Shown: piece after piece, positions 17,565-33,307 of the stretch | How the letters are laid out: the number at the start of each line of letters is the position of its first letter | Position numbering within the stretch: position 1 is the first letter of the stretch | NCBI GenBank assembly: GCA_017537925.1 | Contig: JAFYJW010000031.1 | Location: 1 to 38,718, forward strand | Direction of reading: 5' to 3' | Source of the DNA: Synergistes sp. | GTDB taxonomy: Bacteria; Synergistota; Synergistia; Synergistales; Synergistaceae | Length of the DNA stretch: 38,718 nucleotides | The notes under the pieces: model-generated | Seen by the model: only the letters and a program-made list of their open reading frames with translations | Told to the model about the DNA's origin: nothing | Databases searched by the model: none | Translations under genes and position numbers: made by a program

Positions 17565-17917
17565 GGGGACGACAGGTTTCGACAGCAGCGGAGGGTCGGG
17601 GGGAGCGTGCCGAGGATGGGGAAACCTCGTAAATCAGGCTCCAAAAAAATAATTGTCGAAGACAATTACGCTCTCGCTGCTTAATTAAGCAGCGCGCTCT
17701 TCCGGGCTTCCGCCGCCGGGTCCGGAAAGGGCGTCACAAAGACGGCTGGGATAACGGCAGATCCTTTCGGCCGGCGTCCGAGATCCAGGAAAGGATAGGG
17801 AAAGAATATCCCGTCTACGGGAGCCTCGGCCCCGAATCTTAAAGCGTAGACTACGCACGTAGCGCCCTCCAGATTGTCTTCTGTTGGACCGGGGTTCGAT
17901 TCCCCGCGTCTCCACCA
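17565..17917 (+). ncRNA. ssrA: tmRNA (10Sa RNA)
   Basis: This RNA rescues stalled ribosomes and tags the unfinished protein. The 5' end GGGGACG pairs with CGTCTCC before a genomically encoded ACCA end. The T-arm GGACCGGGGTTCGATTCC is clear, as is GACAGGTTTCGAC near the 5' end. The tag frame runs from about 17637 (resume codon GGC) to TAA at 17682-17684 and encodes GSKKIIVEDNYALAA, ending in the usual ALAA degradation signal. The exact resume codon is inferred. The RNA is one piece (not permuted) and about 353 nt long. It follows smpB by 20 nt; no separate promoter was identified. Confidence 0.96.
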
Positions 17918-29303: not shown

Positions 29304-30104
29304 ATGGCAGAGGAAAAACTGCTCGAATTAAAGGATCTGCACGTCTCAGTGGACGGGCGCGAGGTCCTTAAGGGCGTTTCTTTATCCGTAAACGCCGGGG
29401 AGATACACGCGCTTTTCGGTCCCAACGGCTCAGGCAAGACGACGCTGCTGAACACCGTGATAGGTTTTTCACGGTACAAAGTAACCGGAGGGTCTATCTC
29501 GTTCAAGGGGCAGGATATCACAGAGGCGACTATAGACGAACGGGCCCGTATGGGAATAGGCATATCATTCCAGAGACCTCCGACCGTAAAAGGCGTCACG
29601 CTCAGAGCTCTTGCGTCTCTCGGCAGAGAAGGCCTGTCCATGGAAGAGCTGGAAAGAGATGCCGCAAACCTTGACGCAGCGGAGTTTCTTGACAGAGACA
29701 TCAATGCGGGACTGTCAGGCGGAGAGATGAAACGCACAGAGATGCTGCAGATAATCCTCCAGCAGCCGGATCTGGTCTGCCTCGACGAACCCGAATCCGG
29801 AGTCGACCTGGAGAATATGGCCCTTATAGGACGCGCAGCGCGCATAGCGCTCGGCCGTGAGGAAGCCGGCGGCGGCCAGTGCACCCGTTTGAAAAAGAGT
29901 CTGCGCAGCGGCTACAGGGCGGGACTTGTGATCACACATACCGGCCAGATAATGGACCATATCTATGTCGACAGGGGACATGTGCTGATGAACGGAGAGA
30001 TAGTCTGCTCGGGCAACGCACAGGAGCTGCTCGGCGAGATTCGCAGCCACGGCTACACGGAGTGCTTCCGCTGCGCCGGCTGTGACAGGAGGAACTTAAA
30101 ATGA
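29304..30104 (+). CDS. sufC: Fe-S cluster assembly ATPase SufC (SmsC-like)
   Basis: This 266-aa ABC-type ATPase powers Fe-S cluster assembly with SufB. Motifs are Walker A GPNGSGKTT, the Q-loop at SFQRPP, the signature LSGGEMKR, Walker B DLVCLDEPESGVDL and the H-loop VITHTG. Compared with a standard SufC, it has an insertion (about REEAGGGQCTRLKKSLRSGY) between the D- and H-loops and a C-terminal tail with three Cys (ECFRCAGC). ATG 29304 is chosen because GGGGAAGGG precedes it by 7 nt; an earlier TTG-type start would lie in that site. It overlaps sufB by 4 nt. No sufS, sufU, sufE or second sufD-like gene follows. Confidence 0.93.
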   Translation: MAEEKLLELKDLHVSVDGREVLKGVSLSVNAGEIHALFGPNGSGKTTLLNTVIGFSRYKVTGGSISFKGQDITEATIDERARMGIGISFQRPPTVKGVTLRALASLGREGLSMEELERDAANLDAAEFLDRDINAGLSGGEMKRTEMLQIILQQPDLVCLDEPESGVDLENMALIGRAARIALGREEAGGGQCTRLKKSLRSGYRAGLVITHTGQIMDHIYVDRGHVLMNGEIVCSGNAQELLGEIRSHGYTECFRCAGCDRRNLK

Positions 30105-31273
30105 ACGAATACCGCGTCGAAGAGCACATCGGCGATTTTTCAAGCGAAGCCCCGCATCATGACGAAATAAAAGACCTCTCCGCGCTTGCTGACGCAGACA
30201 GAGAAAAGCTGCTGCGGGCCGGTATAGACAAAGAGCAGCCTGCCGCCGGCACGTTCGTTCACTCGGACCATAACACGGTGTACTGCAACTCGCGTCTCAA
30301 GGGAGTAGAACTTGCCCCGATATCATACGCTCTTTTCAAACACGATTGGCTCAAGGATTACTATTGGAAGATAATGGACCGGGACAAAGACGTATTTACC
30401 GAGCTTGCCGCAGGGCGCAAAGAAGGCGGGTACTATATACGCAGCGAAAAGGGCGCAAAGGTAAATTACCCGGTACAGGCCTGCATGTATCTCGAAACAA
30501 ACGCCCTTGCCCAGGATGTCCACAACATCGTCATAGCCGAAGAAGGCTCCGAACTCAACATAATATCCGGATGCGCGTCCGGGCCGAACGTCCGCTCCGG
30601 GCTGCATGTAGGCGTATCGGAAATGTACGTCAAAAAAGGAGCCACGCTGTCGTTCACGATGGTGCACGACTGGGCCGAAGAGATGGCTGTGCGCCCGCGC
30701 ACGACGGTGGTCGTGGAAGAAGGGGGACGCTACATATCGAATTATGTCTGTCTGAAACCCGCAAAAGATCTGCAGATGTATCCTACGGTATATCTTAACG
30801 GTCCGGGCGCCGCGGCGACATTCAACACAGTGCTGATGGCAGGTCCCGGTTCCAGGATGGATACCGGTTCGCGCGTATATCTGCGCGGAGAAGGGACGCG
30901 CGCCGAGATAGTATCCCGCTCCGTGTCGACTGGAGGCACGATATATGCGCGCGGACACCTGATAGGAGAAGCATCCGGCGTAAAAGCTCATCTTGAATGC
31001 AACGGTCTGCTGCTTTCGGACAAAGGGGTAATTCTTGCGGTGCCGGAACTTGAGGCGCGGCACAGGAATCTTGAGATGTCTCACGAAGCGGCGGTAGGCA
31101 AGATCAACCAGGAGGAAACGGAATACCTTATGGCGCGCGGCCTTTCCGAAGCAAAGGCGCAGTCGCTGATAGTAAAGGGGTTCCTTTCACTTGACATCAT
31201 AGGGCTGCCCGACGCGCTGAAAGGCGACATAGACAAAATAATAGAAGAATCCACAGCCGCGGGGGCGATGTAA
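30101..31273 (+). CDS. sufB: Fe-S cluster assembly scaffold SufB/SufD family (SmsB-like)
   Basis: This 390-aa protein is the scaffold partner of SufC. The C-terminal two-thirds form the SufBD beta-helix: ALAQDVHNIVIAEEGSELNI, then GLHVGVSEMYVKKGATLSF, IYARGHLIGEASGVKAHLEC and PELEARHRNLEMSHEAAVGK, which includes the conserved SHEA region, then SEAKAQSLIVKGFL. With only one SufBD-type gene beside sufC, this matches the minimal two-gene SufBC (SMS) systems described in anaerobes and archaea. Start ATG overlaps the sufC stop (ATGA). A clear terminator follows. Confidence 0.94.
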   Translation: MNEYRVEEHIGDFSSEAPHHDEIKDLSALADADREKLLRAGIDKEQPAAGTFVHSDHNTVYCNSRLKGVELAPISYALFKHDWLKDYYWKIMDRDKDVFTELAAGRKEGGYYIRSEKGAKVNYPVQACMYLETNALAQDVHNIVIAEEGSELNIISGCASGPNVRSGLHVGVSEMYVKKGATLSFTMVHDWAEEMAVRPRTTVVVEEGGRYISNYVCLKPAKDLQMYPTVYLNGPGAAATFNTVLMAGPGSRMDTGSRVYLRGEGTRAEIVSRSVSTGGTIYARGHLIGEASGVKAHLECNGLLLSDKGVILAVPELEARHRNLEMSHEAAVGKINQEETEYLMARGLSEAKAQSLIVKGFLSLDIIGLPDALKGDIDKIIEESTAAGAM

Positions 31274-31334: not shown

Positions 31335-31366
31335 AAAAACCGCCGTAATGGCGGTTTTTATTTTTA
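31335..31366 (+). terminator. Terminator of sufCB
   Basis: A 10-bp stem AAAAACCGCC / GGCGGTTTTT with loop GTAAT (31335-31359) is followed by ATTTTTATT, 61 nt past the sufB stop. Confidence 0.88.
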
Positions 31367-31382: not shown

Positions 31383-31411
31383 TTGACCTCACATCTTTAA
31401 AAGACTAAACT
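31383..31411 (+). promoter_or_regulatory. Probable promoter of the corA leader
   Basis: TTGACC (31383-31388) and TAAACT (31406-31411) are 17 nt apart, directly after the sufB terminator. The transcript would begin near 31418 and have a leader of about 160 nt before corA. Confidence 0.55.
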
Positions 31412-31467
31412 TTTAAGTTGTAAGCGAACTCAAATTCGGGCGCCATGCCCGGGGAAGGAGATCATTT

Positions 31468-31527
31468 ATGGACGCAAGCGGCCCCAGTCCTGAACAAACT
31501 GGACCATATAATTTATCTTTCCGCTGA
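31468..31527 (+). CDS. Candidate leader peptide of corA (19 aa)
   Basis: A short reading frame with a strong ribosome-binding site (GGAAGGAG, 7 nt before ATG) encodes MDASGPSPEQTGPYNLSFR and stops 53 nt before corA. It has three prolines and acidic residues at positions 2 and 9. In enteric bacteria the short proline- and acid-containing MgtL peptide upstream of mgtA couples low magnesium to ribosome behaviour; the layout here is similar, but the peptide sequence is unrelated by eye. It could also be a chance ORF. Confidence 0.55.
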   Translation: MDASGPSPEQTGPYNLSFR

Positions 31528-31538
31528 CGTTCGCCGGC

Positions 31539-31576
31539 TTTCCCTGCCCGCGGACATGATGCGGGCACGGGGGAAA
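31539..31576 (+). promoter_or_regulatory. Hairpin sequestering the corA ribosome-binding site
   Basis: TGCCCGC (31545-31551) pairs with GCGGGCA (31561-31567), and after a bulge TTTCCC (31539-31544) pairs with GGGAAA (31571-31576). The 3' arm contains the GGGGG ribosome-binding site of corA, so the folded leader should block translation. Its 5' arm begins 12 nt after the leader-peptide stop, so a ribosome paused near the end of that ORF would disturb the hairpin. Another small stem, CGGGC/GCCCG (31437-31451), lies before the leader ORF. Confidence 0.65.
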
Positions 31577-31580
31577 TTCT

Positions 31581-32537
31581 ATGCTGAAAATCACAAAAAC
31601 AACAGATGCGCGGCTCGTTGAGCTTTCTCCGGGAAATATAGAAGCGGGCGCATGGATCAGTCTTGTGCACCCGACCACCGAAGAACTCTCCGAAGCCGAG
31701 AGGATAACAGGGGCTCCGCAGGATTTCATCCGCTCCGCGATGGACCCTGAAGAATCTTCGCGCATCGAGATAGAGGAAAACCATATACTTGTCCTCATCA
31801 ACGTTCCTCTGAACCGGGACCCGAACGACTATTCGTATGATACGATACCGCTCGGTATAATAATCACTCCGGAATATTTCGTCACGATATGCCAGGAGTA
31901 CAACGACATAATCCAGAATTTTTCGGAGTCGCGCTTCCGCTACTTCTGCACCTATAAGCGGACCCGCCTGCTCTTTCAGATACTTTACCGTTCGGCGATG
32001 CTCTTTCTGAAAGATCTGCGCCAGATGACACGCCGCTCTGATCAGATAGAACAGGACCTGCGCAAGTCGATGAAAAACGCCGAGCTATTTCAGCTGCTCG
32101 ATCTTCAGAAGGGGCTTACCTACTATTCAATGTCGCTGCGCTCCAACAAGGTCGTTGTGGAACGCCTGCTCAGGCTCTGCTCCAATTCGCAGGTCAGCCA
32201 TCTGATAAAATTCCGCGAAGAGGACGACGACCTTCTGGATGACGTGCGCGTAGAATACGATCAGGCAATAGAGATGGCTCAGATACAGACGGACGTCCTT
32301 GCCGGGATGATGGATGCGTTCGCCTCCGTAATATCGAACAATCTGAACATCGTAATGAAATTCCTCGCGTCGATAACGATAGTTATGGCCATGCCCACGA
32401 TGGTCGCAAGCTTCTTCGGGATGAACGTACCTGTCCCGTGGGAGACGCATTCAATGGGATTTGCCATCGTATGCCTGCTCGCATTCGTTATCACGGCGGC
32501 AACGACCTGGGTGCTCTGGAAAAAACGGCTCTTTTAA
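31581..32537 (+). CDS. corA: CorA-family magnesium transporter
   Basis: This 318-aa pentameric channel-type transporter moves magnesium (possibly cobalt or nickel). It has a large N-terminal cytoplasmic domain (1 to about 250) with the long helices typical of CorA, and two C-terminal TM helices. The family pore signature appears as FFGMNVPVP at the end of TM1, where most CorA proteins have YGMNF; the GMN is intact. The length is normal. Expression is probably controlled by the leader ORF and hairpin just upstream. It is the only gene after that leader and ends at a bidirectional hairpin. Confidence 0.95.
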   Translation: MLKITKTTDARLVELSPGNIEAGAWISLVHPTTEELSEAERITGAPQDFIRSAMDPEESSRIEIEENHILVLINVPLNRDPNDYSYDTIPLGIIITPEYFVTICQEYNDIIQNFSESRFRYFCTYKRTRLLFQILYRSAMLFLKDLRQMTRRSDQIEQDLRKSMKNAELFQLLDLQKGLTYYSMSLRSNKVVVERLLRLCSNSQVSHLIKFREEDDDLLDDVRVEYDQAIEMAQIQTDVLAGMMDAFASVISNNLNIVMKFLASITIVMAMPTMVASFFGMNVPVPWETHSMGFAIVCLLAFVITAATTWVLWKKRLF

Positions 32538-32659: not shown

Positions 32660-33307
32660 TCAGTATCCCAGATCCTCTCCTACTATTATGACATGGCACT
32701 CGCGGCCGATAGGCGCGCGCTCAAGCAGCATAACGACACGGCAGAGCCGGTCTTCGCTGCTGCAGTCGGAGCAGCGTCCGGTCACGGCGCACGGCGTCCT
32801 GCGTGAAAGACGCATCGCGTTCGGAGGAGTTGCGGCATTGCGCGCCCGTTTAAGCGCTGAATGGACGTCAGGCGCTATCTTGTTTACGCCGATTATATAT
32901 AATATCCTGCCCGGCCCCCAGGACATCGCCGCGGTGCGGTTGCCTGTCCCGTCTATATTCACTATCACGCCGTCCATCGAGAGAGCGTTGGCGCTTGTGA
33001 CGAACCAGTCCGATGTAAGTTCCTCAAGCAGCGCTTTTTTTCTTTCATCTTCCGTCATTCCGGGGATCCAGTGCTCTGCTATGACGCAGCCTTTTTTCCT
33101 GAGCGCCTCGGGCAGCCCTGTTTCACGGACTGTGACGGTACCGGGGATACCTACGGCAGATCCGTCGGGAATCAGCGCAAGCGCTGCCTCGCGGGCCTCC
33201 GCGGCATCCTTTGCAAAGCTTGCATGAAAGCCGCGGGCTTCGAGCGCTTTGCATACGTTTTCGGCAAGCGCTTTGTTTGACAGATGTTTTGCTTCAGATA
33301 GATTCAT
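32660..33307 (-). CDS. LUD-domain protein (lactate-utilisation family)
   Basis: This 215-aa cytoplasmic protein resembles the stand-alone LUD (DUF162) proteins related to LutB/LutC. Recognisable parts are NKALAENVCKALEARGFHAS, AVGIPGTVTVRETGLPEAL, the DWFVTSANALSMDGVIVNID segment read in parts, GTGNRTAAMSWGPGRILYII and a C-terminal Cys-containing stretch (CAVTGRCSDC). The short form is frequent in anaerobes and its function is unknown; no lactate gene is in the window. ATG follows a GGTGA site. The gap to the oadA-like terminator holds nothing else. Confidence 0.88.
   Translation of the reverse strand: MNLSEAKHLSNKALAENVCKALEARGFHASFAKDAAEAREAALALIPDGSAVGIPGTVTVRETGLPEALRKKGCVIAEHWIPGMTEDERKKALLEELTSDWFVTSANALSMDGVIVNIDGTGNRTAAMSWGPGRILYIIGVNKIAPDVHSALKRARNAATPPNAMRLSRRTPCAVTGRCSDCSSEDRLCRVVMLLERAPIGRECHVIIVGEDLGY

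Follow-up and report, generated by a model that had tools for sequence, protein, structure and literature searches.

What the leader RNA in front of a corA gene of the Synergistaceae does is the question raised by this locus. The window, by which we mean the whole stretch of 38,718 nucleotides analysed, carries corA at 31581-32537 on the forward strand; the 318-residue product matches Pfam CorA (PF01544, E 1.7e-47), has the GMN motif, present as GMNVP in the translation, and has the CorA structure 4cy4 as its nearest solved structure in the PDB (E 4.6e-17). Its choice of ion is not certain, because it scores 86 bits, below the NCBIfam equivalog cut-off of 201 bits. The nearest named contig, with a CorA of 96% identity, is 'Synergistes sp.' JAEEYY010000239.1. 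Upstream of the leader region is a SufB/D-like gene (30101-31273), which is followed at about 31335-31365 by a terminator-like hairpin and a T run. Downstream, a gene for a LUD-domain protein (32660-33307, reverse strand) is transcribed toward corA, and the window also contains a tmRNA gene (17565-17917) with the tag peptide VEDNYALAA. An earlier note had proposed that a short leader ORF and an RBS-hiding hairpin control corA in a layout like that of MgtL, in a distant phylum, on a CorA gene and with an unrelated peptide, and had named conservation of the ORF and exclusion of a known metal riboswitch as checks.

The leader follows a predicted sigma-70-type promoter on the forward strand (31383-31411), with TTGACC at 31383-31388, a 17-nt spacer and TAAACT at 31406-31411, and by sequence reading these elements are also found before corA in close relatives. 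A short hairpin, P0 (CGGGC/GCCCG, 31437-31451), stands just 5' of the Shine-Dalgarno sequence AAGGAG (31455-31460), which is separated by 7 nt from the start of a 19-codon leader ORF, MDASGPSPEQTGPYNLSFR (31468-31527; ATG at 31468, TGA at 31525-31527). The N-terminal half of the peptide is acidic, proline and serine in character, with E-Q where most relatives show E-P and with two acidic residues only, and the ORF ends 53 nt before corA. Directly behind the stop codon lies segment 0, GUUCGCCGGC (31529-31538), which can pair with segment 1, GCCCGCGGAC (31546-31555). Segment 1 is predicted to pair either with segment 0 (ON) or within the 5' arm of an RBS-hiding hairpin, 1:2 (31539-31574; OFF), in which 31539-31552 pairs with 31560-31567 and 31569-31574 and whose 3' strand GGGGGA is the corA Shine-Dalgarno sequence. 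Folding of the leader (206 nt) is more stable than that of shuffled sequences (z -3.0; 2 of 200 shuffles equally stable). The ORF with its good ribosome-binding site, its proline and acidic residues, and the hairpin with the corA RBS in its 3' arm had all been picked out by the earlier note, and each is confirmed here and in the comparisons below; its interpretation that together they control corA is supported as a model. Helix 0:1, and the occurrence of such leaders before mgtE and in Firmicutes, it did not see.

Among the 100 nearest genomes 55 hold this CorA, 54 of them with a readable 5' region, and by curated reading a leader ORF with an early acidic residue and Ser/Pro is present in 36 of these 54. 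Four of 15 further, more distant corA loci also have one, giving 40 of 69 readable loci in Synergistota (71 CorA rows less G038, truncated at its 5' side, and G161, fragmented); the remaining 29 lack such an ORF, and in many of them the gene lies tight behind another gene. Conservation, the first of the proposed checks, is thus borne out, and it resides mainly in the N-terminal half, with starts such as MDxSGPSPEP, MDSSSPSPEPQG and MEGDSxS. Other examples are MDASGPSPEPVGQSLLIFI, MDSSSPSPEPQGRLVNIF, MDSSVPEPASNG... (partial), MEGDSSSTTVPRQIRFLY, MESECSARPEPLCGHIG and MSTGDSPLSRRNLGDAA. The curated peptides repeatedly have an acidic residue among residues 2-5, the number of Ser-Pro units differs between them, and the SPEP core is lost in G005. 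Codons 1-12 are conserved and the C-terminal half is free to change in group A, the ten leaders that include that of the window; in group B the Pro and Ser codons vary synonymously. The stop codon varies among TAA, TAG and TGA with the frame kept, and across lineages the reading frame, start, Shine-Dalgarno sequence and stop persist while the RNA changes in sequence and length. We note that the codons AGTCCTGAACCT (31475-31505 in the window, and in relatives) are almost invariant in nucleotides and can form a small hairpin, GUCC/GGAC, within the ORF; in G008 a perfect inverted repeat, AACGGUUCCGAACCGUU, takes their place.

When 185 Synergistota genomes are searched with R1, a covariance model built from 16 leaders, 22 of them contain a single strong match (E < 1e-9), in every case just upstream of corA. 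Three further weak matches (E 0.002-0.009) were left uncounted, one of which precedes a corA (G108). Because ORF and hairpin both recur in relatives and the R1 matches precede corA, the two are more than a chance occurrence.

Leaders of the same type precede mgtE, which encodes a Mg2+ channel unrelated to CorA. By a fixed criterion for an acidic/Pro/Ser leader ORF, of which an acidic residue within residues 2-5 is itself a part, they are found before 38 of 69 corA genes, 34 of 78 mgtE genes and 8 of 252 control genes drawn from 400 kb of 20 genomes (2 of 142 where the control has an intergenic gap of at least 120 nt). The curated and criterion counts for corA differ by G064, G072 and G079, which have a distant Shine-Dalgarno sequence, and by a criterion match in the G012 region that was not curated as a leader. 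Twenty-three of the 34 mgtE leaders are among 58 loci fetched after the features of the criterion had been formed on the first 20. MgtE scores above the cut-off in 122 genomes, and the mgtE loci are a chosen part of these with the large genus g23 thinned (80 stretches asked for, 78 existing and read); 44 of the 78 have no such ORF by the criterion, and many of these mgtE genes follow closely on another gene. Examples are MEDPSSRSCVPLC..., MESGPQPLSRNRRA, MDAGPSLNPPLY... and MDAEPSPELNLPCF... (all but MESGPQPLSRNRRA partial), and in G073 and G058 the same hairpin type is kept before mgtE.

The two transporters tend not to occur together in Synergistota genomes. Of the 185 genomes, 71 have CorA and 122 MgtE; both occur in 26 (about 47 expected if independent), CorA only in 45, MgtE only in 96 and neither in 18 (Fisher p 4e-11, where, as in all our counts, the rows are related genomes and p values therefore overstate independence). 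G030, G042, G049, G059 and G163 have both transporters with corA leaderless and the leader on mgtE instead. G041 has a leader before corA and none before mgtE.

Similar leaders are present in Firmicutes, which we entered through the CorA of Clostridium minihomine (41% identity to that of the window). A CorA homologue is present in 27 of 80 genomes of the C. minihomine family, and a leader ORF with the start x-[PAS]-[DE]-P stands before corA in 19 of these 27 (L223 and L224 among them, both by eye); examples from the Oscillospirales are MSPDPGSRS, MNPDPASPRS, MSPEPDNVG and MKADPLGDN. The P-D-P core corresponds to the EPDP element of E. coli MgtL (excerpts of PMC11282234). We also scanned, blind to the genes, for a Shine-Dalgarno sequence followed by M-[SN]-P-D-P. 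Across the class there is one match in 391 genomes, directly before mgtE; across the order there are 8 in 394 genomes against 3 for the reversed control, comprising six ORFs 21-30 codons long, each at a distance of 14-46 nt from the corA that follows it, and the N-termini of two long proteins, of which one is of the CNNM/CorC type. All seven short-ORF matches of the two scans thus lie just before corA or mgtE, one of the six from the order (G220) being already among the CorA-homologue genomes. In L219 and L223 the x-P-D-P leader reads across the Shine-Dalgarno sequence and start of corA, so that leader and corA overlap (with certainty in L219; by eye in L223).

These peptides and the genes behind them bear on what a leader of this kind might sense. 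The same switch between 0:1 and 1:2 could report a shortage of charged prolyl- or seryl-tRNA, or translation that has slowed overall, and leaders rich in Pro and Ser codons with a variable number of Ser-Pro units would suit that role, as would the response of mgtP to charged tRNA-Pro (excerpts of PMC8092293). However, the leaders lack a stretch of consecutive Pro codons such as amino-acid attenuators have, the recurrent early acidic residue (in the curated peptides, and also part of the fixed criterion) does not fit, and the downstream genes are those of Mg2+ transporters, not proline or serine genes; we regard this explanation as unlikely.

The RNA itself shows two competing helices. Hairpin 1:2 and P0 covary. 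The paired share of cells is 90.4%, where shuffles reach 82.9% and slid controls 31-43%, with a maximum of 43.1%. Of the 13 pairs counted, 6 are changed on both sides, and doubly changed cells number 21 where shuffles give 6.2. P0 contributes three of the counted pairs, two of them changed on both sides, with 87.5% of its cells paired. Helix 0:1 is possible in 27 of 27 leaders with a dG below the shuffle mean in every one (Fisher p 2e-16, the rows being related), and its 5' strand lies at the leader stop codon in 25 of the 27, where a terminating ribosome would cover it; in G074 and G081 the final part of the ORF serves as the segment. In the window alone its dG is -15.6 against -11.0 for shuffles (p 0.06), values to be read with the arms having been set by hand, which leaves room for choice, and with GC-rich sequence giving easy chance helices. 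Over 16 lineages, pairing of arms from the same lineage gives -18.2 kcal/mol against -14.0 kcal/mol across lineages (Wilcoxon p 3e-4 and 8e-5), with exceptions, G016 and G022 above all, where cross pairing with swapped arm windows is at least as good as the lineage's own. A further candidate, pairing of GCGAAC (31424-31429) with the GUUCGC of segment 0 as a fourth arm, (-1):0, like that of mgtQ, was rejected as holding only in the genus of the window; it is better than shuffles in G000 (p 0.003) and G001 (p 0.03) and not in 6 other group A leaders.

Both predicted helices use segment 1 in all 27 leaders, and equilibrium folding yields no ON state. In the window 1:2 (-23.0) is stronger than 0:1 (-14.6 in this comparison), and at equilibrium the corA Shine-Dalgarno sequence is mostly paired in all four modelled ribosome states; since the more stable hairpin never opens in this way, the ON state needs kinetic trapping.

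We consider it probable that 31413-31580 is a translation-coupled attenuator of corA in which aborted translation of the leader at low Mg2+ raises CorA. Transcription would start near 31418 and a ribosome would begin on the 19-codon ORF. With sufficient Mg2+ it would reach the stop codon and keep segment 0 covered during the emergence of segments 1 and 2, so that 1 would pair with 2 and hide the corA RBS. At low Mg2+, with the 70S ribosome unstable, it would fall off or lag on the N-terminal acidic and proline codons (MDxSGPSPE); segment 0 would then be free as segment 1 emerges, 0:1 would form first, and the Shine-Dalgarno sequence in arm 2 would stay single-stranded and allow CorA to be made. 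The choice between 0:1 and 1:2 would accordingly be kinetic rather than one of equilibrium.

An ORF that merely couples translation or protects the mRNA, beside a hairpin that sets a fixed level, or one that encodes a functional small protein, would account for the closeness of leader and corA in the window, and many bacterial uORFs are of such a kind. Against coupling, 0:1 recurs at the stop codon with different sequences and the distance from leader ORF to transporter varies between about 50 and more than 300 nt, and the C-termini of the peptides are free to change, unlike those of a folded or membrane peptide; we find this explanation quite unlikely.

The output of the attenuator appears to differ between lineages. 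In group A, arm 2 extends into the corA Shine-Dalgarno sequence itself, and the output in the window looks translational, the RBS being hidden. In other lineages about 100-300 nt follow arm 2, and there the same ORF and 0:1:2 switch may act on an arm 3 and the transporter Shine-Dalgarno sequence, or precede an intrinsic terminator. An arm 3 (for example CACUCCC) with a potential partner in arm 2 or in the Shine-Dalgarno sequence of the transporter is suggestive in these spacer lineages; we offer the cascade as a possibility because such pairings are mostly not above shuffles (p < 0.05 for 2:3 in 3 of 16 and for 3:4 in 2 of 16). In Synergistaceae from termite guts (G019, G031, G036, G040) the leader is followed instead by a terminator-like hairpin, at least three of the four having a T run as well, and the output is, judging from these sequences, probably transcriptional. 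The termite-gut leader upstream of corA (L024, L028, L030, L047) is a longer one, MDSSVPEPAS...PRPPG, and its terminator-like hairpin with T run is clearest in L024, L028 and L030.

At gathering scores Rfam finds no known riboswitch in the window leader, the M-box (ykoK, RF00380) included, and no leader RNA of the mgtL or corL kind is matched at those scores or with E up to 5, where the only matches are the snoRNA RF01569 and DUF2693 at 12-22 bits, far below the cut-off. The M-box is likewise a Mg2+-responsive 5' element of Mg2+ transporters and differs as a ligand-binding RNA; with its occurrence in 1 of 100 relatives, the exclusion of a known metal riboswitch, the second proposed check, holds. 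That one M-box is at G041:C201:3688-3858 (L078), on a contig that could be foreign. A direct Mg2+-binding riboswitch whose aptamer overlaps the conserved ORF, with the peptide a by-product, might explain why many leaders keep the nucleotides of AGTCCTGAACCT so strictly, as well as the possible small hairpin there, but we think it very improbable given these Rfam results, the retention of frame, start, Shine-Dalgarno sequence and stop while RNA sequence and length differ between lineages, and the mgtE and Firmicutes leaders, which have acidic/Pro peptide features in common and no obvious RNA sequence.

The attenuator model has its closest parallels in the enterobacteria. In mgtL-mgtA a uORF with N-terminal acidic and proline residues, including EPDP, precedes a Mg2+ importer (excerpts of PMC11282234), and the expected polarity is the same, completion giving OFF and abortion ON. 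It differs in its Rho-dependent termination, in a transporter that is a P-type ATPase, and in a peptide with no known sequence relation to that of the window. In mgtQ-mgtB of Salmonella, Asp2 and Glu5 act with alternative stem-loops of which the last hides the transporter RBS, a translational output (excerpts of PMC8092293); the differences are its 8 codons inside an operon, a stem region 1 that overlaps the ORF, the P-type ATPase and its place in Proteobacteria. In corL-corA of E. coli and Salmonella a short uORF lies in the corA 5' region with alternative RNA structures, its efficient translation lowers corA, and the system responds to intracellular Mg2+ (excerpts of PMC11552253); it differs in Rho-dependent termination, a uORF placed in a three-way junction, few Pro or acidic residues and an unrelated peptide. 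The expected polarity of the window leader matches mgtL, corL and, for the acidic residues, mgtQ. As modelled, it works like mgtQ and resembles corL, and it is a member of neither by sequence, RNA or phylum. The MgtL-like layout of the earlier note therefore stands as to the acidic/proline uORF and not as to mechanism, where mgtQ with its RBS-hiding hairpin is the closest analogue and mgtL works through Rho. Its unrelated peptide is upheld, the likeness to known leaders being, by eye, in composition and not in sequence; so is the distant phylum, Synergistota, but CorA is no departure from precedent in view of corL control in Enterobacteria (excerpts of PMC11552253).

A literature search, with subscription papers mostly outside its coverage, turned up no description of leaders like these in either Synergistota or Oscillospirales. 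In a screen of Thermovirga lienii (Synergistetes) only an SLH motif is highlighted as a riboswitch candidate, and the corA motif is restricted to Gammaproteobacteria (both from excerpts of PMC6429828). A uORF reported in Mycobacterium differs in lying under an M-box (excerpts of PMC12810186). The principle is thus known from enterobacterial mgtL, corL and mgtQ, and the phyla, peptides, RNA layout and the breadth over CorA and MgtE appear new. Ribosome destabilisation, reportedly defined in a 2017 study, is to our knowledge established as a Mg2+ sensor only for a few enterobacterial leaders.

We incline, by a little, to the broader view that aborted translation of acidic/Pro leaders serves bacteria at large as a means of sensing Mg2+. 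It would have been fitted to CorA and MgtE in Synergistota and Oscillospirales, probably on several independent occasions, and would there take the place that the M-box has elsewhere, with the ribosome as the usual sensor and with outputs from RBS hiding to cascades and intrinsic terminators. If true, an enterobacterial special case would become a general principle, extending to two unrelated transporter families in two other phyla, and common gut bacteria would carry an unannotated layer of control. Dozens of natural variants would then be at hand for finding the residues that break ribosomes at low Mg2+, and such leaders could help in recognising Mg2+ importers in poorly known phyla.

We note finally the long protein of the CNNM/CorC type found by the gene-blind scan in the Oscillospirales (L249 in G956, ORF 200-1516 on the reverse strand; Pfam CNNM, E 2e-49), which itself starts MNPDPG; by analogy with the leader peptides, this N-terminus might sense Mg2+ as they would.
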